Origin: Paramarasmius palmivorus
Lineage: Eukaryota > Basidiomycota > Agaricomycetes > Agaricales > Marasmiaceae
DNA: 64,000 nucleotides
Assembly (NCBI GenBank): GCA_037176845.1
Contig: JAYKXP010000029.1
Location: forward strand, 62,001-126,000
Direction: 5' to 3'
Part shown: piece by piece, positions 12,340 through 62,240 of the stretch
How the letters are laid out: each line of letters opens with the position of its first letter
Position numbering within the stretch: position 1 is the stretch's first letter
Translations under genes and position numbers: made by a program
The notes under the pieces: generated by a model
Databases searched by the model: none
Told to the model about the DNA's origin: nothing
What the model saw: the letters and a program-made list of their open reading frames with translations, nothing else

Positions 12340-14190
12340 TCAATCAAAAGACGCATCTGACTCCGCACCACTCAGGCGTATATCCAGATCGGTGCTTTCA
12401 ACATCCAGGTCTAGATCCTCTTTGCGCAAATCTTCTATGCACTTCCCTACCCGCCCAAGCTTGCGAAGTGGGCAGTAGTGAAAGACCAAACGCAATTTCT
12501 TCAGTCGTTGATCTAGTGGTCTTTGCAGCCGTGACCGAACCATTTCGCGTAGACAGTTGGCTGCAGGGTGCACCTTGAAGTGGAGTTGGAGGCTGGCGAC
12601 GCCGGGTAGAATAACGTCTGATTCCGAAGTGATCGTCAGACGACGCAATAATTCGTCCGTAACCAGGAATGGTGATCCTTGATCCAACCGGGATCGTTGG
12701 TCTTCGATATTGAAAGAAGTTACTAGGGGTAGAACAGCAAGCAACTCGACAAGCTGTTCATGTGTCAACGTCTTTGTTATGTTGAGACTGAACTCGGTGA
12801 GGGGGGTCTAGAGCGCGACATGAAATGAGCCAATTCTGAACCGTGATCTACCTCGACGGCGGAGTAATTGGCATAGGTCTCGGAAACATGTAATGAGGAT
12901 AGGTGTGATAGAGTGAGGTGTCGGAAGAGTCCAGGTACTATGGAACGAAGATATTTCGCCTCGAGGGTCTTCAGCTGGGAGGTAACAACCAAGTTACTGC
13001 TTGCCGGTGCTAGAGTGGGGCCCTTTATGTGAACGTCGACCAAATTTGGTGCATGTCGTAGGACGTCTAATAGCGTATCTATGTAGTAGCCTTCCAGCGA
13101 AAGGTACATTAAGGAATTTAGGTTGACGGGTTCGATCAAATGGATTTCTATGCCTGCCAGACTCAGATCTGAAAGACGAGGAGCGAATAAGGGAGAAGGG
13201 GGACCAGGATCCGGAATCCACTCTAAATCCTGGTTCGAATCGTCGAGAACCTCGCGGCGCAAAACCGACAATGTTATGAGGTGAGGTAGGACTTGCGGCA
13301 GGATGAACTCTTCGTCGAGCATCACTGTCGGGTCGACAGCCTTCCATCTGGCACTGTGCCGCACCAGCTCAGATAATATTGGTCGATGGGTTTCCGCATT
13401 ATACTCGCGCACCTGCTCCTCATCCGCTTCGTCGAGATACCTTTCCCATGAGTACTCCGGTACCCTGAACTGAATGGTAAGACGACGGCGACGATTTTTC
13501 TCTAAGAGAAATCTCATCCACCTAAGGATCCTTTGGGAAGACTTTGGACCATCGCTGACTCGAAATTCAACGGCAACGTTCGACCATAGTTTCGGGGTAG
13601 AGTGGACCAATGTTCGCCAATGGGAACATACTTGCCTCAAGGTGAGGGTTATCCGAGTTTTCGATTGTCCACAACTCCATCGACTTGCGTCCTTTGTGCG
13701 TCCTCCCAGGCTATGTAGAAGACATGCAGCAGAATTTCAGGAGGAAGTCGACGAATCGAAGGCTTGAGCATCTCCTTGAGTCTGTTTGCTATGTCCGAAA
13801 GGTACTCCTTCCGCTTCTTCATCTGCCTGACCGTATCCTGCAACCTCTTCAGTTCTCGTCCATAACCATCAATCTCCGTAATACATTCCTGCAAAGCCTC
13901 ATCAAGAGGAGTCATCTCATGATCAAGCGAGATGTGGTTCCCTGGATGCTGCGAGAGATATTTCTCGATGACAGGGAGATAATGACTGGATAGTGATTCG
14001 GCTGGAAAGCATTCATGACACCTATTGCAGAGCTCGATTGGTGTGTCGAATGCGTCCTGAGAAGGCGTTAAAGTTTATTCGCTCTTATTTCCAAGAGATC
14101 GCTACTCTCACCTGTTCAGCGTCAACCGCTACTGTCGGGTCGCTCCTCGGCTTTCTTAGGCTGCGGCCGGGTCCGCGGTATTTTGTTTGA
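12340..14190 (-). pseudogene. F-box/LRR-type protein, copy 1, frameshifted
   Basis: Paralogue of the interrupted F-box gene at 52250-62240. Seen: an N-terminal Cys-pair segment (D-T-P-I-E-L-C-N-R-C-H-E-C-F-P) in an exon starting at 14056 after an intron at 14057-14111, a coiled coil, an F-box (R-R-L-P-P-E-I-L-L-H-V-F), Q-V-C-S-H-W-R and P-K-L-W, then leucine-rich segments to the stop at 12340. F-box proteins recruit substrates to SCF ubiquitin ligases. Lesions relative to copy 2: about 35 extra nt after the F-box (around 13645-13685) that shift the frame, and a C6 tract (12801-12806 on the + strand as G6) one base short, which ends the frame after S-R-P-P-S-P. No in-frame ATG was found in the first exon. 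It may be a true pseudogene or carry assembly indels. Confidence 0.7.
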
Positions 14191-39550: not shown

Positions 39551-42500
39551 ATGGCTCCCCCGCCTCCACCACCTCCGCCTCCTATCTGCTTCCCTTTCGT
39601 AGGAAAGAAGCCTCCTCGACGATTATCATTCTCTAGCGCGGAACCCGGCGGAAACCCATACAACCCTTCTTACGCGGCCTCACAACAGTCTGGCTACGTT
39701 GGCGACACGGGAAAGCTCACTCGACACCAATCTTACTCGACGACGTCATCTCAATCTTCTATGGCATACCATGCAGCTAATGGTCACGGACCACCTCCCA
39801 TGGTGCCATCTAAAGCGTCGTCAGGGATTACATTTTTATCTGACTCGGAGAAATACGACGAAATCCCTCGGGATGTGATCATGGATTTTGGAAATGGAAA
39901 CGGAGGGGTGAGGAAGAAGAATGGAAAGCCAAAGTTAATTAGAGGGAATACGATGACGGGTAGCAAGAAAAGGCCGCCGCCATCGGTCACGACGGCCGGT
40001 GAGGCTGACACGGTCAGGAGCGTGGCAGAGGTGAAGCCGAAGAGCGGTGGTTTTGCGAGTAAATTTGGCTATGGGTGGGGTATAGGGAAGAAGAACAAGG
40101 AGAAGGAAAGGCTGGCTGAGATCGAGGAGGCAGATCCCGAGAAGGCTTCCATCATGACTGGGTCGCAGTCCAACTTGCCCATGTACCAGTCCCAGATGTC
40201 AATGCCGCCTCCCATAACACCACATCGCAGCAACACCAGGTCCACTCAGAACACCAAAGATACACAGGACACTTTGGTCAGAAGAGATACTCAACGAACG
40301 CAGACAACCATGCGAAGCCAAGTTACTTGGGAGAGTCGCGATTCCGCTGAATCAGCTCCATATCAGCCCCCCTTGACTAGGGAAATGTCTGGACGCAGCG
40401 GCAACTCTGGTCGTTCCGGGGGTAGCAGAATGAGAGGTGGTGCCGATTTAAGTAGATCTGGCACCGGAGCCTCGCGGCAGACAGACAGGTCTGGACATTC
40501 TGGCGCAGATCTGTATCGTTCGAATACGGGCGTGTCTGGTCGTTCAGGTGCTGATCTCAGTCGGTCAACTACGTTATTGAATCGACGCCCAACGTTGGGT
40601 CCTGCTGATTCATCTTCCACCTTGGTCGGGAGCGCTTATGAGAGGAAGATACGCCCTGACGAAAGCATTCACGAGAGGGTTGAGACAGGTGACCGTCTTG
40701 AGCAGCTGAGAGCGCTCATGGCGTCGGACAAAGAGAAATTGGACTTTTAGTGAGTCTTTACTTGTCCTATAAACAAGCGTTCTTTTCTGACACGATACAT
40801 CTCCAGTATCGTCCCAAGCGAGGATGCTCATCAATCCGAATATGTTGCCAGCAGTGACAAACGTCGCCAGTATATCTGCGGGTCAGCTAGCGATCCCTGA
40901 TCTCTTTCCTATTTCTTGTCTTGCTAATCGATTTCTTCTAGTTTCTCCGGTACGAGTGGGCATGTGATTGTTTCCCATTCCGATGCCTGGCTAGTTACGG
41001 ACTCGCGGTATTGGGGCCAAGCTCAGAGGCAAATCGACTCAAACTGGACTCTGGTGAAAGCGGGAGGCCCGCGCCAGCCAAAGGATTGGATTGACTGGCT
41101 TGTCGTAAGTTTGGACCCTTTCTTCTATGGTGCTAGTTGCTCACGATGTTTCTCAGGGCGTAATACCACCGAATTCACGAATTGGGATTGACGGTCGTAT
41201 GATCTCGTACGAGAAAGCAACGCTACTCAACTCCAAGATCAACAGCAGCGGTTCAAAGTTGGTTTATCCAATTCAAAATTTGGTCGATCTTGTCTGGAAA
41301 GATAAACCTGCCAAGAGTCGGGAGCCTGTCTTCATTCACGGTACTGAATTCACCGGTCAGGATGCAGCGAAGAAGCTGGCAACAATGAGGCAGTGGCTTA
41401 GCGAACTACCTCCAGATGTGCCCAAATATTCCTCAGGACCAGCAGACCCCAAGCCGAATCAGATACCGATTGCTACTTTGATCTCGAGCTTGCCCGCCAT
41501 TGGTAAGTCGTGCTTCTTTCATCAAATTAAGAATATCCAATAAACATGCATTGTACAGCGTATCTCCTCAACCTTAGAGGGAGCGACATTCCCTATAACC
41601 CCCTGTTTCACGCGTACCTCTTCATTTCCGTCGATGGGCCGACCGTGCTATTCCTGGACTCGAGCAAAGTTCAACCTGATGTCCAGAGCTATCTGGATAA
41701 CCTTGGTATCCAGCGTAGAGATTACGTCGATATCTGGTCGTTCTTGAGGCAGAGGGAGTGGAAACAGGAAGGAAAGATCGTCATTTCCCCACAAACCTCG
41801 TATACTATCGCTCTGGTGCTCACTCACTTCCGCACTATGGTGCTGCCCTCCCACGCGGAGTACATGATGTCCATAAAGAATCCAACGGAACTGGAGGGCA
41901 TGAAGAGAGCCTATCTCAGAGATGGTGTCGCTTTTGTGAGTTCTTTTCTTGTCTCTTCGTTTTCGCCGATATCTGATATGACTGATTTTCTAGACCCGAT
42001 TCCTCGCATGGCTCGAATCCAAACTAGCCGACGGATACGATATCACGGAGTGGGAAGCTGCGCATCGGTTAACTGAGTTCAGGAGAACGCAGAAGCATTT
42101 CATGGGTCTGGCGTACGAAAACATTAGTGCCAGTGGTCCAAACGCGGCATTGCCGCACTACTCTCCTAGAAAGGATGAAGCAAAGATGATCAGTCGGAAT
42201 GATGTATATCTAAAGTGAGTTTTTCTCCTTCGCTACTATTACGCATGTCCACTGATATTGTGCAACCTAGTGACTCGGGTGGTCAGTATCGCGATGGTAC
42301 ATGTGACACCACCAGAACAGTTCACTTTGGTCGACCGACTGAGGAACAATGTGAAGCATATACTAGAGTGCTGCAGGGTCATGTAAGTGCATCTGTCTCC
42401 AAAGCGACCACCCCTTCTGACCCTATTATCAAGATCGCTATCGATACCGCCGTATTCCCTGAAGGTACTTCAGGTTTGCAACTGGACGTCTTGGCTCGCC

Positions 42501-52249: not shown

Positions 52250-53693
52250 TCATTCATCAGAAGTTTCCGAGTCTACATCACCGAATATTATATCCGGAAG
52301 GGACCAATATTCTACATCGAAATCCAGATCTTCTTTACGCAACTCATCCATACACTCCTGCAAAACCCGTCCAAGCTTGCGATATGGGCAGTATTCAAAG
52401 ACCAGGCGAAGCTTTTTCAGCTGCTGGTTTGCTGGTCTTTGCAACCGCGACCGAACCATATCACGTATACAGCTGCTCGTCGGGGGTGTTCCAAAATGGA
52501 GTCGAAGGCTGGTTACATTGGGCAGAATGGTGCTAGAATCCGAAGTAATAGTCAAACGGCGCAACAAATCATCTGTTACCAGATATGGCTCCCTTGGGAA
52601 TCGAGGGTCTCCGATGGTCAAAGAGGTCGTTGTCGGTACCACAGCGAGTACCTGGTCAAGACCCTCTTGTGATAAAGAATTGGATACGCGGAGACAGAGC
52701 TCTGCGAGCGGGGGTCGGGAGCGCGAGATAAAATGAGCCAATTGGTCTTCGTGATCCACCACAAGGGCGAGCTCATTCATGGTCTCCGAAACATGTAGTG
52801 AGGAGAGGCATGGCAGCGTGAGGTGTCGGAAGAGTCCAGGAACGGAGCTAAGATGTCCCGCCTCGAAAGTCCGCACTCTGGAGGTGACGACCAAGTCGTT
52901 GTGGGCTAACGCGATAGCGTTCCCATGCACGTGGAGTTCAACCAAATTTGGTGCATGCCGTAGGATGCCCAAGAGCGTGTCCATATAATAGACCTCTAGC
53001 GTGAGGTTCGTCAAGGAGTTGAGGTCAACCGGCTCGACCAAACGGACCCCTACGCCTGTCAGGCTGAGGTCTGAGAGATGAGGGGCGAACAAAGGGGAAG
53101 GAGGACCAGGATCGGCAATCCAATCTGGGTCTGGATCATCGAGAACCAGATGACGTAGGACAGATAACGTCGTGAGGTGAGGAAGGTCTTGTGGTAGGCT
53201 AAATACTTCGTCGCGCATCACTGTCAAGTCGACGGTCTTCCATTTAGCACTGTGCCGCACCAGCTCAGTTACTACTGGTAGATGCGTTTCAGTGTCATAA
53301 TCGCGGTCCTGCTCTTCATCCTCTTCGTCGATATATCTCTCCCATGGGTACTCGGGAACTGTGAGGTGGATGTCGAGATGACTACTCTGAGCCTTCTTTA
53401 GTAGGAATTTGGTCCATCTGAGGATCCTTTGAGTAGACTTTGCGTTATCGCTGACTCGGAATTCGACAGTGATTTCGGACCATAGTTGCGGAGTAGAGTG
53501 TACCAATATTCGCCAATGGGAGCATACTTGTCCCAAGGTGAGGATCGTCCGAGTTTTCGATTGCTCCCCAGCATTGGAAAAGACGTGCAACAGAATTTCG
53601 GGAGGGAGTCGACGAATCGAAGGCTTGATCATCCCCTTGATCTTGTTTGCGACGCCTGAAAGGTACTCCTTTCGGTTCTTCATCTTCCTCACT

Positions 53694-53698
53694 ACTTC
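53694..53698. repeat. Left target-site duplication ACTTC
   Basis: ACTTC directly precedes the insertion and recurs at 61908-61912 directly after it. By comparison with F-box copy 1 the sequence belongs to the target gene, so it is a 5-bp duplication made on insertion. Confidence 0.75.
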
Positions 53699-53704
53699 TA
53701 GGGA

Positions 53705-53724
53705 GAAATAGACGTCGGGGTCAC
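53705..53724 (+). repeat. Left terminal inverted repeat of the element
   Basis: GAAATAGACGTCGGGGTCAC, six bases inside the left boundary. Part of it (GAAATAGACG) is repeated directly at 53728-53737, and its inverse (GGCGTCTATC) occurs near 53775, so the end is a small array of related motifs. Confidence 0.8.
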
Positions 53725-54161
53725 GCGAAATAGACGCCAGGACCCGCTTAGGTGGTTCACCTGACAGCCGTTGGCGTCTATCTTTTTTACGTTGTCTTCT
53801 GTTTGTATGTACCGCCTCTAGCCAAACATTGGCCGCGTGTCCTGTTCTTTCACCGTCGTCGCCGTCGCTCGACGTTGAGCACCCTCCGAAATATATCACA
53901 TTTTATTAGCCCTCTTCACATTTGCCCCCTCGGAACGTCGCTAATCACAATATCCAGGCCGATCCCAGCTGCCGCTGCTCAAGATGACGACGCAAAGTGT
54001 TTCATCCCATCCTCCGTTGCTGTTGTCGACTTTGCTCTCATTGCCAGTCCCGACATCCCTCAGATTGAATCTCCTTGGGCCCGCTCGTTCTTTGCTCTGG
54101 TCGTTTCATTGAGTATCGGCTATTGGCTGTTTACGAGAACCTGGAAAGCACCCGGTAGATC

Positions 54162-55737
54162 GATGGGTCGACGTCCGAACAATATTCCGCAAGAACTCTG
54201 GGAAAAGAAATATGAGTTGCCTGGGTTTGACGAGAGCGAAGCAGAAGAGGCTTACCTGTGAGCATTGTCCAAGCTTCATAAAGCTGATCACTGAACCGTG
54301 TCTCTAGGTATCAGTTGACCCTTCCGCAATTGAAGGTCTTGTGCAGTAGATACAAGTCGTATGGCTTAAGGGTTTCTGGAAAGAAACCTGACCTACTAGA
54401 GAGCCTGGTCAGGTTAAGTGATGAAAAGAGCCGATGGACATTGTAAGTGCGATTTCATGTATAACTACGTGTACGGTACATTAATATTCTCTAACAGCAA
54501 GCAACCCGCAAAACGTACGCACAAGGGTCTGCAGCCGGGAACGAGGAAAACCTCGACGAAGCGAAAATACAAGCAACGGTTGGAAGAAAAGGGTGTTATC
54601 TTTACTGAGAGTTCGCACACGAAACACATCAGGGGCATGCGTAAGCGCACCGAAGCAGAGATGGACACGGAAATGGACTACGTGAGTTTATTTTGATGGA
54701 TACAGTAGATGTCGCTTGATTAAGTTTGTGTCATAGATCGACAGATACATGGCTCTTCACCCAGAATACTACCAACCCATGCAACCAACACCACAGATAT
54801 CGGTATGCAGAGCTATGATTTACTGAAGTTTTTTTCTCATTATCTATAGGTTGAACCAAAACCTAGCCTCGTAGCTCAAATCGGCGATGTGATGGAGACC
54901 AAGCTTCATCAATTTGCTCGTTCCATTGGCCATCACTCGTTGACAGATGTCGTGACGGAGCCACAGCCAATGGTGTTGCCATCTCTGTCATCATTTCTTC
55001 CTCCTCCACCTGTGCCAGCACCACTATCTCATTCAAATGCGGCTCTTCCTCCTCCTCCATCTACGCCATCAATCTCCCACTCGCATCTTAACCTCATTGA
55101 TGAAGTGTCGACTTCAACGCAAACCCCTCGGGCTGTTTTCTCGGCATCAGCTTTTCAATCGTCCCCTGAAGCGACCACACCACTGGACTATCCAAGTGCT
55201 TCAATGGACAATCCATTGAGCACCGCTCAGCCCCGGATCAAGACTCTCCGTATTTGGGTTGGCACTCCGAAGGAGACCGTGCTGGTTTTTGACCAGACGC
55301 AGCTCCCTGAGCCACCCAGTCTTACGTTTTGTAAAGATCTTGACGAGCTGGGCCGCTTATGGTGTGAAACCAACCCGGGCTTTTGTGAGGACGAATGTGT
55401 ACTGAAGATCAGTGGCCGAGGAATCGCATATCAGCATTGGCGTAACGTATTCAAGCATGGCTCAAAGACCTCACCAGATACAAGATGGGAGGGGCTCCGA
55501 AAGAAATGGGACGTGTGGCGGGTATGTGTTCCTACTCAAGTCGTAGTATCAGTCTGATTCACAGCATGCCAGGTTATCGGTGTATATTACACAGCACAAG
55601 GCAAAGAAGCATTTTGGAACGAGTTCACTGTTGATGGATCTCGGCTTCGCCAGACTGCGATACTTGAAATACTGTGTGCACGGAGCCCAAACAGCACAAA
55701 GGGCCTGAACGGAAATGGAAAGGCAGTTGGTACTTGA
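54162..55737 (+). CDS. SAP-domain protein of the mobile element
   Basis: Predicted DNA-binding protein. After M-G-R-R-P-N-N-I-P-Q-E-L-W comes an acidic stretch and, over an intron, the SAP domain: Y-Q-L-T-L-P-Q-L-K-V-L-C, G-L-R-V-S-G-K-K-P-D-L-L-E-S-L. SAP domains bind A/T-rich DNA. Next a basic segment (K-R-T-H-K-G-L-Q, K-R-K-Y-K-Q-R), a Pro/Ser-rich linker with P-P-P runs (near 55005-55075), and a globular C-terminal domain (T-L-R-I-W-V-G-T-P, W-C-E-T-N-P-G-F-C, W-E-G-L-R-K-K-W) spanning a last intron to G-K-A-V-G-T. At least five exons. The start is uncertain: 54162 is the first ATG in the frame leading to the SAP exon with protein-like sequence, but upstream exons between 53750 and 54160 are likely. 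It may target or tether the recombination complex. Confidence 0.65.
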
Positions 55738-56003
55738 TTTGACAAACCTTTTGCAGTTGATTTTCTTGGTTTCTCGACGCGTTACATGTTCGTCTTATTA
55801 GGTATTAGTGTATTAATGAGTTATATATATAGCAGATTACATGGCTGGTTTTACGATTACTACTGCGCTAAATAGAAGACTATTGAAAGATTATGATGAA
55901 TCATAGATTATTGGCCGCTCGAGCTGGTCATCTGTACGAACTATTGAGAGAACACTTTGTATGAAAAAGCGCATTACTCACTTCGCCCCATTCAATGTCG
56001 CTA

Positions 56004-57864
56004 TCAGAAGCACTGCCTTCTGCACGTACTGCATAGGAAACCTGGATGTGTATGAGAATGTGAACATTGAAAGCATAGTAGATGGCTCACTTCACCCCAT
56101 TCTATATCACTATCTGAGCTGCAGGTGGCGTCGTCATCATCATCCGAGATCTCGATATATTCATGAGCCCGTGTTGCAGACAATGGGAAATTGGATAGTA
56201 TATGTTCGACTGCAGAGACCGCAAGTAGATATGATGGAATTGACACACGGATACTTTGACGGAATTCGTCCATAGCGTCAACAGAAAGTCCAAGATGCAA
56301 CATGGCAGGGCCAAGGAACAGCTTGGCCGTGGAAAAGGTGATATGCATCCGTTGAGTGCTTGTTGTCAAAGGGTTGTGGCGTGTGTGAGCAACAACTATC
56401 GAATGTTGGCTCGGATGAAAGCTGTGACCATACGAAAACCGAGCGGACTCTTGCTGTGACGGTGCGAGAATATTTCCAGATGCACGGTGAAATCGAAGGT
56501 ACCCCTGAAAAGGTTTCGTGAGCACGGCATATGGGTTGGGTCCGAAACTTACTAAAGTGAGCATTCGTGTGATTAAACCAGCCCATAAGCCCTTTTCATG
56601 AAACTTCTTCATCAACCTCTCATTGCTGGTCCACTTTACGAGAGAGCGAGCTTTCTGAATGATATCCTTGAGCTCATATAGCTTGGGAATCCACGTGTCT
56701 TGCGACGGGGGTCTAGACTTTGACCATGAGGTTAGCGGAAGAATGAACGCGTTTATTGCAACAGAGTCTGCTGAAAAAAGACGTTGCTGATCTGCTTTCA
56801 ATCTCTTGCTTGCACTCGGCTGATTCTTCTTCAGGTATCCATGGTAATTGAACTGGAGCTCAGCACATATCTGATGGCAGACATGGCTCAGATGTGCGTC
56901 AAGGTCTTCTGAACGGTGACGGTTGCGATTATGGTGGGGGAACTTGGACATCAACTTGGAGCCGTAGTTGCACCGGGCAACTGCAAGACCGAGTTCATGT
57001 CCAATACGTTCAACCCCTGAGTCGTAGTCATTTCCGACAAGAGTAGCGTAAAGGATTAGGTCGCCATGGGTAAGACGAAGCTTGCGCTCTACATCTGCGA
57101 AACGATAGACTTTGACCATCATGCGACTATCCGTGCTGCCCAGAAGGTCACTCCTCAACACCCTTTGAAGCCTTTGCACACTTACCCCTTGATTACCATT
57201 ACACAGGGAGCACCAAGGACAATCGCGTCACTGTCATCAGTGACAATTGCATCAACGAGGCCGTTTCTGGCCATAACAGCGAGCTCGGCCTCAGCCTCAC
57301 CAGGAGCCTGCCGTGAGCAATTAGTGATTGACTTGATAGGAAAATTAGCCCAAACACACCATATGTACATGGTGCCCAAACGCCTCAACGAGCTCTCTGG
57401 TCTCTTTGTAAAAGCTTGGTTCGTCTGGAATGACTGCCAGTCCCCGTTTTACCGGTGGGCGCTCAGTACCATCAGCTACCCAAATCGACATGACTGAAGA
57501 CCTGTCCAACTGAGCAAGAAGCCGGAAAACTTGAGAATGTGCCCCGTTAGTTGGCGAGTGAGCCTGAAACTTGCTGAATGGGATTAGGTTGTGAGTGATT
57601 CTGTCCAAGGTCGTGCTGCTAAACTTTGAGTATAGGTATCGTTATAACATTTCAAGATGTACACACCTCATGTCAATTCCAACAACAAATGGCCGCCCAG
57701 CTTGATATGTGCCCCCCTTTATACGCCTAACCTGTTCCTCTGCCACGAAATCATCCAGGGAACATTCAACTGCTATTGGCTCCACAATCTGCAGCAATGT
57801 CAGTACCTTTAGTATGCTAAATCATGTTCCATTAACGCACATCCCAGATTCCTTGAACACCCAT
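56004..57864 (-). CDS. XPG/Rad2-family nuclease (GEN1/Yen1-like) of the mobile element
   Basis: Structure-specific 5' nuclease. Start 57864: M-G-V-Q-G-I-W-D then, over an intron, I-V-E-P... and F-V-V-G-I-D-M-S (XPG-N Asp). Next V-A-D-G-T-E-R-P-P-V-K-R-G (second Asp and KRG), A-P-G-E-A-E-A-E-L-A (two Glu), V-T-D-D-S-D-A-I-V-L-G-A (two Asp), and G-N-D-Y-D-S-G-V-E-R-I-G (last Asp plus helix-hairpin-helix). All seven acidic metal ligands of the family are thus present, so it should be active. The C-terminal half is unlike cellular members and ends in an acidic tail (I-S-D-D-D-D-D). Near the 3' end the segment D-I-E-W-G-E followed by a splice donor occurs twice (about 56090 and 55995), so the last exon is unsure. 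Cellular GEN1/Yen1 cut Holliday junctions and flaps. Role in the element inferred. Confidence 0.75.
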
Positions 57865-58649
57865 ATTGATGAAGAGAAGATGAGAGAGAGGAAACGAAGA
57901 GATACTCCTGTTTCTGCCTCCGTCGTCACACTGTTACTTCGATTGTTTCAAGAATATGTGTCATTCCCGAAAAATAATACATTCATGTAGGATATAGCGT
58001 GCTGAAGCTGGTTTCTATTCAGTAATGCCAACCTGTTAGAGCCGTATTAGTGAACAGTTTTAATTGTGTAAAGTAGCAGACACACCGTTCGTAACATTTG
58101 AGTGTTCTAACATTAAGACACGAAACCACTCTCATTCTTCCCTCAGCACCTCAGCTCTTAAAGATATCGGATAGCCTGAGCACCATTTGTAGAAGAGATT
58201 GTACGAAAGGCAAAACAATGGAAGATTGAACGACAGGAAGAATTAAGCTGCAGCCATGAGAATCAGTGACTTGTTCATTGACAGAGGCATACTACACACC
58301 TTTGTGTTTCCCTGGGACAATTCTTCTGCCCTACGCACTTGAATTACTTCTGTTTGAAGTCTCGTTGAGGTTGCGGAGTCAAAGCAGATAGAACGTGTTC
58401 TCTGCTGTTTGAGATCAATTTGAGCACGAGAATGTGAATTGGCATGAGCGTAGCTTGGTGATTATGAAAGGTTGCATCCACCAGGGTCAGGATTTCCACC
58501 TTCAGGCTGTTGAGACCGTGCGGAGTAAAGAGATTAATGCCAGCAGTTAACGCGAGCAGCTTACACATTCAATTCCAAAAAAGGAAGCCGTAAAATTTGA
58601 GACGTAGACTAGTAACTACTGAAGGTATGAAAGGGAGAATAGTAAGAAG
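57865..58649. other. Non-coding stretch inside the element
   Basis: About 785 bases between the nuclease and recombinase genes. It contains the promoter of the nuclease gene and the 3' UTR of the recombinase gene. No coding feature or repeat was recognised. Confidence 0.4.
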
Positions 58650-60815
58650 CTAGTAGGAACATGCACAGGTACGTTTACAAGTAAAACATGTGTTCTCCTC
58701 GGCATCTATAGGTACTGTAGTACAAAAAAAGTTTTCACGCTTGAACATGGGATCGTCATTCCAAGAAATAAGATACTTGACGATTGTGAGGTGCGTAAAC
58801 TCTTCGCTCCACCCGCCCCACTCACAAATCTTCCTCAGAGGCCACCGTCGGTTCACTGAAAGCCACTGGACACCTCCACGACGGAAAGAATGACCACCGT
58901 AAGGATCACCGTCGATGTTGATGTCGGCAAGGTTCTGGCGAAAGTTGTCGAGGAAAGCCTTTGGGGTCTGAGCAAGAACAGAGTATGTTAACATGTACAA
59001 TATATCTGAGTGTTGAGAGCTTACCATTGCCTCATTGTCATCACGTTCAATGCGGTCGTCGCTACCAATCTTCCGGCATAGGTACCCCTTCTTGATCTTG
59101 CACGCCTTCTTCCATCCACAGTAGGCACGTATCGGACACAGATAAGCAAGTTCTGGGGGGAATTCACGCAAGTAAAAAGGCTTGGTGACTAAAAGGGTTT
59201 AGTGAGAGCCTAATACATGATTATAACATGTTAACTTACCACCGTTCTGATGGGTCTTTCTGAATAAGAGCCATATCTCAAGCATATCTCCATGTTCGTC
59301 GTACTTTTCATGAAGGGTTATGTCCTCTGCTCGAATCTGAAGTGTTTCATCAATACGGAGCAAGCACAAGAATGAGATGACGTAGACAAAATGAAGGAGG
59401 CGCCGCATACGACCTCCACACCACTTCGTACTTGACGCCTTCTCCTTCTTTGTCTTGGCCTTGATGATGTTGATGTCGAAATTGCCATCTTCCCGGCTCG
59501 CATTGTACATTTCTTTGATCATTTTCTTGCATGCGTTGATGTCAGTTGAGTGTCCAAAACGGCTAAGAAATGTATGTTACTCACCGCGGTGACAGCTCGT
59601 GAGCTCATTGGTTTTTCGCCCAGCTGAACCTATAGATACGTGAGCTAGGCCACGTAGTCTCCATGGATGAGGTATACCTTTTGCCGTTTGAGGTTAGCCA
59701 TGTATTTGGAGACCTGGTAGGACGCGATTGGGTTGCCGCTAGTCTTGCCCGTCTCCTCGTCGACACGCCAGGGTTCCACAAGGCCAACTTGTTGGTAACC
59801 CCACAGTATAGCCGCCCTCTCCTTCTCGGCGTGGCTGTACCCGCTGCGATAGTCATCGTCGTCCTTCATGTCGCCGTCGGGGTTCTGCGCATCACAGCTA
59901 TTGTCCCAATGTATGTCAGAATTGTCAACTAGAAACTTGAAAGTGTGACTCACGTTTCCATAACCCATGCAATAAAGATGATGGGTGAATCAGGATGCGG
60001 GTTCTTGGAAATTGCGCTGGTCCCGGGTTGCTTGAGGCTTTTTTCCTCGCAGAATTTCTCGAAACGACGACATAGACTGATACTTGATCAGAACATTGGT
60101 ATCAAAGATTCATATCTGCACCACTTACTTGGTGTAACGCTTGACTGTGTCGTCAAGCACACTTTGAGCACGCTTCGCAGCCGTCTTTCGAAGACTCTCA
60201 GGGATGGGCAAGTTGCTGTCGCCACGTTTTTCATCAACATTCATTCGGTCGTCTTGGAATGCCACCTTCTTCTGCTAACAAATTTCAGCACTGATAATGT
60301 CTGCAATATATTTCAAAACATACCTTGAATTTGCTTTCAGTGTCAACATCCATATCATCATGATGTTGCGTGGTCTTCTACGTTACCGCTTCGTCAGCAA
60401 ACATGATGCACAGAAGGCTTAGCTGCCCACGTACCTTAGCTCCTTTCCCCTTCTCCTTGCCCTCGTTGCCCTCTTCGTCTTCATCGTCATCGTTGTCGCC
60501 TTCTTCATCAGACTCCCAGTCTGAGTAGTCATGATCTGACGCCTCGACGAGTTCAGGTACGTCGGTATCCTCAGTGTCCTGTTGCCGGCCTTGCTGTTGA
60601 AATGAAAGATTTCCGAACTCTTCGTCAAGGTCAACCTCAGCATCAATAGCTGCGAGGGACCCGATGGCAGTGTGTGCCCCAATTGATGAGACATGATGGT
60701 CGATGGTAGAAAGGATGTCCTTCAGGCTGGGAACCGCGTCTTCGACGCGGTTCTCGGAGGGAAACATGGTGCAAGAGGCATTGAGAAACGGATTGGTGTT
60801 GGTAGGGACCGACAT
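58650..60815 (-). CDS. Tyrosine recombinase (integrase-fold) of the mobile element
   Basis: DNA breaking-rejoining enzyme. Start 60815 (M-S-V-P-T-N-T-N-P-F) with an acidic N-terminal region of about 130 aa (D-D-D-E-D-E-E-G). A helical core-binding part follows (L-C-R-R-F-E-K-F-C, A-I-L-W-G-Y-Q-Q-V), then the catalytic domain: F-L-C-L-L-R-I-D-E-T-L (first Arg), Y-G-G-H-S-F-R-R-G-G-V-Q-W-L (His-x-x-Arg), C-E-W-G-G-W (Trp), and T-I-V-K-Y-L-I-S-W (nucleophile Tyr). All diagnostic residues are present. At least six introns of 50-70 nt; junctions were checked at H-Q-N-G/V-T-K-P and E-A-M/T-P-K-A. A Cys cluster (C-F-T-C-K-R-T-C-A-C) closes the protein. Closest known relatives are the large basidiomycete family annotated as DNA breaking-rejoining enzymes. 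Expected to integrate or excise the element. Confidence 0.82.
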
Positions 60816-61129
60816 AGTATGAGTTGGTGATGGGCCTGAGAGTTGCAGAGCTTATATATGGTCATCGTAGGCAGAAAAAATAAAGGAGAAAGATACACGC
60901 ACATTGTTGCTATCCTGAATGCTCCCCATGAGCTCCTTAATCGATTGTGCAGCTGGTTAGGAGGTAGAACAGCCCACGGCCCACAGGTAAACTATTTTTT
61001 CTTCATCGAGATCTCCCTAAAAGGAATCAAATGTAAGAGATATCAAGATAGAAGATGAAAGGTGGCACCTACCGGTCTGTGAGCTGGATGAAGAATGAAG
61101 AGAATGTGAGTGAAGGTGTGGGATGGTGA

Positions 61130-61876
61130 TTGGAACAGAGCGTACGTGTGTCGTACGTGTGTCTCTTTGGTGTCGATTTGATGTCTATTTTTCGTGCTGG
61201 AAGTGCTTCCAGACCCTCCGGAAGCAGGAAAGAGACATCAAGTCGTGAAAAAGACAGGGATAAGAGCAAAGAGGAAAGACATCATGAGGGTGACGACACG
61301 TTCAACAACATCGCACCTCGTGTTGCTTCGCGGTTGGCTCATTTCCCAGGTCCCCGCATGCCTCATGCCTCATGTCATAATGCAGAAACGGTTCATTTCC
61401 GAGCTCTGACCATCGATACACGCGTCTTACACGAGTCCGTGAGTCTACATGAGTTTGCTTTTATTGTTCTGTCCATCTTGAAGCACAACCACCGTCTTCC
61501 TTCATCACTTCATTGCCTTTCTCAAGATGTGAGTCCCCTCTTGAATTTTTTCGTACATACTTATTTCAGTTCGTTCAATTGTACCTACATTCAATTGATC
61601 CCCGATCCTCTTGCCCTCTCGCGTTGCGCTCTTGGGGTGGTGACCGTGTCCCCTCTCCCCGATCGTCCTCCTTTTCCGTCGTCGGCGCCCCCGAACATCG
61701 TTGAAATTCCGTGTTTTTTTGCTCCCGCCGCCTCGTCTAGACCCCCGGAGCTCGGGCTCAAGGCCCCTCTCCTCCTCCGGGGATCTCTAAGCGGCTCGTT
61801 TCGGCTGGACTTTGTTTGGCGTCGGGTCCAGCCTGGTTCGTGGACGTTCGTCCGGTCACAGCTTACGCAGCTGTGA
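61130..61876 (+). CDS. Possible small gene at the right end of the element
   Basis: Open frame of 248 codons whose first part (from the internal ATG near 61181: M-S-I-F-R-A-G-S-A-S-R-P then many S, R, K, E, D) is protein-like, while the second half is Pro/Ser-rich and low in information. It ends within the terminal palindrome. It may be a spliced short gene, an untranslated part of an element transcript, or chance in a CT-rich end. Confidence 0.25.
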   Translation: MEQSVRVSYVCLFGVDLMSIFRAGSASRPSGSRKETSSREKDRDKSKEERHHEGDDTFNNIAPRVASRLAHFPGPRMPHASCHNAETVHFRALTIDTRVLHESVSLHEFAFIVLSILKHNHRLPSSLHCLSQDVSPLLNFFVHTYFSSFNCTYIQLIPDPLALSRCALGVVTVSPLPDRPPFPSSAPPNIVEIPCFFAPAASSRPPELGLKAPLLLRGSLSGSFRLDFVWRRVQPGSWTFVRSQLTQL

Positions 61877-61878
61877 CC
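61854..61878. repeat. Perfect 10-bp palindrome at the right end of the element
   Basis: Arms GGTCACAGCT (61854-61863) and AGCTGTGACC (61869-61878) flank a five-base spacer TACGC and overlap the inner edge of the right inverted repeat. Inverted arms around a short asymmetric spacer are the layout of tyrosine-recombinase core sites, and also of a hairpin that an XPG-type nuclease could open. No equal palindrome is seen at the left end, which has only AGGTG/CACCT. Confidence 0.6.
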
Positions 61879-61892
61879 CCGACGTCTATTTC
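61873..61892 (-). repeat. Right terminal inverted repeat of the element
   Basis: Exact reverse complement of 53705-53724, located 15 bases inside the right boundary. The outer 15 bases (GTGCCCGTCCGCGTC) do not match the six outer bases of the left end. Confidence 0.8.
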
Positions 61893-61907
61893 GTGCCCGT
61901 CCGCGTC

Positions 61908-61912
61908 ACTTC
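61908..61912. repeat. Right target-site duplication ACTTC
   Basis: Second copy of the ACTTC at 53694-53698, immediately followed by F-box coding sequence of the 5' piece. Confidence 0.75.
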
Positions 61913-62240
61913 CTCCAACCTGTTCAACACCCGTTCATAACCATCGACCTCTGTAGCACACTCCTGCCAAGCTTCGTCAAGTAAAGGTATCTCGTGCTCT
62001 AGAGAGACTTTATTCCCTGGATGTTGCGAAAGATATTTCTCGATGATAGGGAGGTAATGACTGGATAATGATTGTGTTGGGAAGCATTCGTGGCATTTAT
62101 TGCAGAGCTCAATTGGAGTATCGAACGTGGCCTGAGAAGGTGTTAGAAAGTCGTCGTTCTATATTATGGAAGAGAACTACCTGCTCAGCGTCAGCTATTC
62201 TTGTGGGCGCCGTCGAGGTTGAGGTCGTTCCAAGACGCAT

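Follow-up and report, generated by a model that had tools for sequence, protein, structure and literature searches.

What kind of DNA has split an F-box gene in the basidiomycete Paramarasmius palmivorus, and with which enzymes does it move? We analyzed a 64,000-nucleotide stretch of this genome (G000:C29:62001-126000, hereafter the window), in which an initial annotation, made from the sequence alone, had proposed an undescribed mobile element encoding a tyrosine recombinase (YR), an XPG/Rad2-type nuclease (XPG), and a SAP protein that might together form one transposition machine. This interpretation was partly supported. Positions 53699-61907 of the window are a mobile element, and together with further copies in the same genome it probably represents a family of Crypton-like YR DNA transposons carrying these three genes.

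The element and the host gene that it splits have the following window coordinates:

53699..61907, whole element, 8,209 bp, with ACTTC repeats on both sides and a host frame that is whole without it
53694..53698, plus strand, left 5-bp direct repeat ACTTC (core RCTTC/GAAGY, the same core as at the C15 and second C29 copies described below)
61908..61912, plus strand, right 5-bp direct repeat ACTTC
61913..62158, minus strand, 5' part of the split frame of the host F-box gene
52250..53693, minus strand, 3' part of the same frame (Pfam F-box-like, E 2e-10)
12984..14053, minus strand, F-box paralogue without insertion, serving as empty-site comparison

As initially claimed, a 5-bp direct repeat bounds the element and the host gene is restored in its absence: the flanks, joined in silico on the minus strand, formed a single open F-box frame, and the paralogue at 12984-14053 aligned ungapped through the junction (73.9% over 999 columns). 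A second F-box paralogue (C29:144904-145914) was also uninterrupted, with a single open frame spanning residues 1-334 of the 344-residue joined query. The window copy appears intact and encodes three proteins:

54163..55737, plus strand, SAP gene VNI00_008465, 6 exons, 438 amino acids (P0094 has the same length, 100%)
55982..57864, minus strand, XPG/Rad2-type nuclease gene VNI00_008466, at least 544 amino acids, 3' end uncertain (535 amino acids at NCBI)
58650..60815, minus strand, YR gene VNI00_008467, 9 exons, 580 amino acids (the NCBI 3' end differs)

In the NCBI numbering, YR, XPG, and SAP are consecutive genes (008467, 008466, and 008465), and the window YR matched VNI00_008467 at 98%. 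The YR active site is complete, as the annotation had stated, with catalytic R, K, H, R, W, and Y all identified in the window, C15, and second C29 copies and, across an alignment of 91 rows (88 relatives and these 3 copies), in 80, 87, 86, 79, 86, and 89 rows, respectively. The YR fold is predicted to be Cre-like: an AlphaFold2 model of the YR relative P0003 (mean pLDDT 76.4, at least 90 at 226 of 509 residues) had Cre as its best match in the PDB (E 6.8e-8), and all 30 matches at E ≤0.001 were Cre or its derivatives, at 14-18% identity and with TM-scores of about 0.3 (query) and 0.5 (target). The NCBI YR model, P0001, has other 3' splicing (window 58650-58970) and omits the segment containing the catalytic tyrosine, which the frame used here retains.

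The XPG protein matched Pfam XPG_I (E 2.1e-16), and its metal site, also described beforehand as complete, has all seven acidic positions in the window copy (D, D, E, E, D, D, D), with D replacing the second E at C15. Among PDB sequences it matched FEN1, Rad2, and GEN1 chains, with 35 distinct sequences at E ≤0.01. An acidic motif (DSDIEWGE/DSEIEFGE/DPDIEFGE) is kept at the XPG C-terminus in the window (55982-56150), C15, and second C29 copies and occurs twice in the window model. The SAP domain of the window protein scored below the curated Pfam cut-off of 23.9 bits (18.6 bits, E 0.0015), and the C15 relative of this protein, P0095, carries Pfam SAP; a structure model of the SAP protein was set aside as too poor (mean pLDDT 47.7). 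A Pfam scan of 18 open reading frame (ORF) stretches and the 3 spliced proteins identified no other transposition enzyme, in agreement with the annotation, and no capsid, polymerase, reverse transcriptase, or DDE domain.

A search of the P. palmivorus genome with each of the three proteins (tblastn) identified the trio at two further loci. On C15, SAP lies on the plus strand at 506.6-508.0 kb, XPG on the minus strand at 510.1-508.3 kb, and YR on the minus strand at 512.9-511.0 kb, and a second trio on C29, at 41.9-47.3 kb, has YR and XPG on the plus strand and SAP on the minus strand, so that gene order and relative orientation are identical at all 3 loci. The C15 gene models were free of stops and frameshifts, and the second C29 copy had one frameshift event in XPG and a SAP alignment covering residues 170-401 of the C15 SAP protein only. 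About 30% of coding bases differed between these two copies. Their YR proteins were 79% identical, with dS 2.9, dN 0.15, and dN/dS 0.05 (493 codons), and XPG (57% identity, dN 0.33, 500 codons) and SAP (58% identity, dN 0.35, 218 codons) were saturated at synonymous sites. With dN low against synonymous change near or at saturation, all three proteins are held by purifying selection.

The ends of the C15 and second C29 copies were located by aligning both loci with each other; a search for perfect inverted repeats around them did not reveal the ends. The C15 element comprises 8,229 bp between GCTTC at 506122-506126 and GCTTC at 514356-514360. The second C29 copy, also bounded by GCTTC, has its right core (GAAGC) at 40329-40333 and its left core at 56669-56673, with 16.3 kb between the cores because other DNA has been inserted. 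Between the two copies, 70 of 70 bases were identical at the right end and 40 of 40 plus 68 of 68 at the left end, and the sequence between the ends aligned in eight blastn pieces at 65-79% identity. The initial annotation had reasoned that related recombinase loci without the other two genes, or with different ends, would expose the trio as a chance assembly or as nested insertions; at these two loci of the same genome the trio instead recurs with comparable ends.

Wherever both ends of a copy were located (3 copies), its two 5-mers match each other (ACTTC in the window, GCTTC at C15, and GCTTC at the second C29 copy). The boundary was GAAGY at 7 of the 8 right ends compared (window, C15, C29, C185, C191, C10:87.6 kb, C45, and C112) and not recognizable at C112, and RCTTCTA was present at all 4 left ends (window, C15, C29, and C85), whereas host bases beyond the core vary among ends. 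The right arm has a palindrome, GGTCAC...GTGACC, at its inner side in the window, C15, C29, and C185, and also at C191 and C112. At C45:74715-74746 (L064) only the outer 32 bp of a right end are present, followed by unrelated sequence, marking a truncated copy or a scar.

Inward of its core, the window copy carries repeated arms:

53705..53724, plus strand, left arm of a perfect 20-bp inverted repeat
61873..61892, minus strand, right arm of the same repeat
53726..53741, plus strand, second, direct copy of the arm motif (CGAAATAGACGCCAGG), 88% over 16 nt

The perfect 20-bp inverted repeat that had been taken to set the boundaries thus exists, but it does not form the ends, lying 6 bp inward of the left end and 15 bp inward of the right end; arm-to-end distances were unequal at C15 as well. 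Allowing ≤3 mismatches, the arm occurs in the window at just these 2 places (0.01 expected from shuffles), and about 4e-5 perfect inverted pairs of at least 20 bp are expected in 9.6 kb of uniform sequence. Across the 68.3-Mb genome, the same threshold gave 4 places (2 exact, both at this locus) and 5 for a reversed control pattern. As a genome probe for further copies, the exact inverted repeat found this locus alone without mismatch, and the window ends, used as 107-nt and 133-nt probes, matched no other locus. A better-scoring inverted pair at C15:506200/514890 was rejected as the C15 arms, the right end being fixed by homology and the 506200 arm repeating the left arm internally in inverted orientation.

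These features suggest how the element may move. Recognition sites of tyrosine recombinases usually comprise a 6-8 bp core flanked by two inverted arms of 11-13 bp, according to the passages on such sites in PMC3212892. Here, YR bound to the inverted arms near each end would draw the ends together, and the joined ends would recombine at the 5-bp core GAAGY. The released circle would carry the arms head to head around the core (in the window, 20-bp arm, 6 nt, GAAGT, 15 nt, 20-bp arm), one core would stay in the host, and the circle would insert at another GAAGY. The inverted repeat would then be an attachment site split between the ends and made whole in the circle, which would explain both why it is not terminal and why the direct repeat is always GAAGY. 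The SAP protein, judged by its domain alone, may be a DNA-binding or architectural factor, and XPG would most likely cut the branched strand-exchange intermediate: as the host target shares 5 bp only, the second strand exchange may be disfavored, and a junction-cutting nuclease would help.

Several observations weigh against a transposon family of this form. The C15 arms are inexact, although they resemble the window arms (AGAC and GTCAC blocks), and the arm-to-arm spacer if the ends were joined is 26 bp in the window and 29 bp at C15, compared with the usual 6-8 bp, so that the reaction may require additional proteins or a wider complex. The right-end probe started inside the core, which biased the C29, C191, and C45 matches to include it, and the left-end probe, which also started in the core, was biased toward core-bearing matches; the C10 and C185 right ends are free of this probe-start bias. 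The window copy stands alone with its ends, and its boundaries therefore rest on one copy and on analogy. The trio can also be incomplete, perhaps by decay: C185 has a related YR with only a piece of XPG, on the opposite strand, and at C10:194.9-197.2 kb (L056) an XPG of the trio clade, its model without stop or frameshift, has neither YR nor SAP within the 17 kb searched. Near the C185 YR, perfect 369-bp inverted arms lie about 2.2 kb apart (C185:48016-50947, L052).

Within the proposed family, what XPG and SAP contribute is the main point of contention. We give somewhat less than an even chance to the view that YR alone moves the element, as in Cryptons, with XPG and SAP as cargo or in other service such as repair, circle copying, or regulation. 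YR-only elements do exist in the form of Cryptons, some of which carry an extra gene, for example a C48 peptidase (passages on Crypton genes in PMC3212892), and the YR of our element, with its complete active site, is also the best conserved of the trio between C15 and the second C29 copy (79% versus 57% and 58%). Against this, purifying selection acts on XPG and SAP, both kept with YR in three copies, and XPG also adjoins a second type of YR, at C88.

This second type, very diverged, was identified at C88 and C54 only, leaving aside weak matches to the first type. At both loci (C88, 32.7-36.6 kb, L060; C54, 302.4-305.4 kb), an XPG_I match lies about 1.5 kb upstream of YR on the same strand, an XPG-YR order reversed relative to the trio; the C88 match is clear, the one at C54 weak (E 0.002, just below the Pfam cut-off). 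The two loci possibly represent another element family. Genome-wide, we found 14 Pfam XPG_I matches, with one within 2 kb at 5 of 7 YR loci (window, C15, C29, C185, C153, C88, and C54) and within 6 kb at 6 of 7, or at 5 of 8 and 6 of 8 if the excluded YR fragment at C153:64404 is counted. Random placement would give this co-location with chances of 6e-14 and 4e-15, values that assume an independence violated by copies of one element. In an XPG tree of 33 rows, the window, Moniliophthora roreri, C10, C15, and C29 proteins formed a clade (99/97), with C88 beside it on a very long branch and with weak support (94/75). C153, where XPG lies 3.6 kb from YR, was rejected as an element of this kind, its XPG grouping with GEN1_C-bearing proteins.

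A fuller account of the three-gene transposon, possible but to be held tentatively, is that of a two-enzyme machine, in which YR would carry out the first strand exchange between the split attachment site of the element and a host site sharing only 5 bp, XPG, as a relative of Holliday-junction resolvases, would resolve the resulting junction, and SAP would be architectural. The partnership of XPG and YR would then be old, shared by two or more YR lineages whose gene orders are opposite, and would define a class of eukaryotic elements.

The remaining explanations concern the identity of the element as a whole. A transposon of the DDE or another inverted-repeat type, in which YR, XPG, and SAP would be passengers, would account for a perfect inverted repeat and a constant 5-bp direct repeat, but we consider it very unlikely, since the Pfam-scanned stretches held no DDE domain, the inverted repeat is non-terminal and unequally distant from the ends in the window and at C15, and every direct repeat is GAAGY, not an arbitrary 5-mer. 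Chance assembly, or nested insertion of unrelated elements within the F-box gene, is improbable in the extreme: nesting does occur here, as the DNA inserted in the second C29 copy illustrates, but the C15 and window elements, of nearly the same length (8,229 and 8,209 bp), share the trio, its order and orientation, and comparable ends, so that C15 already contradicts this explanation, and YR and XPG lie together far above the random-placement estimate. That the element is what remains of an integrated virus or a YR retrotransposon (DIRS/Ngaro), both of which can carry YR, is scarcely credible, as the stretches scanned held no capsid, polymerase, or reverse-transcriptase domain, and 40 stretches of viral contigs fit a pattern with 0 confirmed as a relative.

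We compared this transposon family with known systems. Like Cryptons, it has YR as the sole recombination enzyme found, no reverse transcriptase in the stretches scanned, the catalytic R-H-R-Y, and short direct repeats at its ends (5 bp in 3 of 3 copies, compared with the 4-6 bp given for Cryptons in the passages on their ends in PMC3212892). Those passages describe Cryptons without terminal inverted repeats, whereas a perfect 20-bp pair lies near the ends here, and the extra gene noted there is a C48 peptidase instead of XPG and SAP. The GCR1_C domain of CryptonF and the DUF3435 domain of Starship captains were both absent from Pfam matches of the window YR and of 46 of its 93 relatives, and Phage_integrase matched in 13 of these 46. 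Starships resemble our element in having an inward-reading YR near one end, short direct repeats, and sometimes inverted repeats (relevant passages of PMC12134995), and the initial annotation's use of inverted repeats to set the element apart from Starships accordingly fails. They differ in being giant with variable cargo, compared with the same three genes in 8,209 and 8,229 bp, and in being described from Pezizomycotina rather than Basidiomycota. DIRS/Ngaro elements have a reverse transcriptase, and none was identified in the stretches scanned here.

Cre/loxP, XerH, and Flp share the arrangement of inverted arms around a core, and the predicted fold has its closest structural match in Cre, but the arm-core spacing here is longer and unequal. 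GEN1/Yen1, Rad2/XPG, and FEN1 share the XPG_I domain and the seven acidic residues, whereas the element XPG proteins form their own clade (99/97), and the window XPG protein had no Pfam match to GEN1_C, a domain of GEN1/Yen1. No XPG-bearing YR element was described in the titles and abstract beginnings listed by searches of open papers, a set that excludes subscription papers, preprints, and Repbase reports, or in the passages around the search terms in PMC3212892, PMC12134995, PMC10799480, PMC3411680, PMC3783388, and PMC13236599.

We identified 93 YR relatives among 1,017 candidate proteins, and the named ones are mostly from Agaricomycetes, with three from Ascomycota. The YR tree, restricted to relatives of this YR (38 relatives and five own-genome rows), placed the window, Moniliophthora, C185, C15, C29, and Marasmius crinis-equi in one clade (99/99) and included a group of Armillaria, Desarmillaria, and Hymenopellis and another of Suillus, Tylopilus, and Pisolithus, with many deeper forks unresolved. 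The SAP and XPG searches, each among the best 8,000 candidates, gave 5 and 46 proteins, respectively, and many sequence relatives of the XPG protein carry a GEN1_C domain. Protein relatives of all three (64%, 52%, and 49%) are known in Moniliophthora roreri, M. perniciosa has protein relatives of YR and SAP, and the evidence for linkage of the trio comes from the P. palmivorus genome only.

To our knowledge, few types of DNA transposon driven by YR have been described in eukaryotes. The family bears on how such transposons insert at sites sharing few bases, as several copies reveal its ends, core, and arms, and its recombinase is inherited together with a structure-specific nuclease. It allows a direct test of whether the recombinase passes its Holliday junction to the nuclease; if it does, some transposons may bring their own enzyme to complete the jump. 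GAAGY, inverted arms, and YR-XPG-SAP provide a search signature, and relatives of YR are present across Agaricomycetes. As for the host gene, closely related F-box genes were found scattered along C29 (window 12984-14053 and 52250-53693, and C29:144904-145914), and a genome search with the joined F-box query scored 117 matches.

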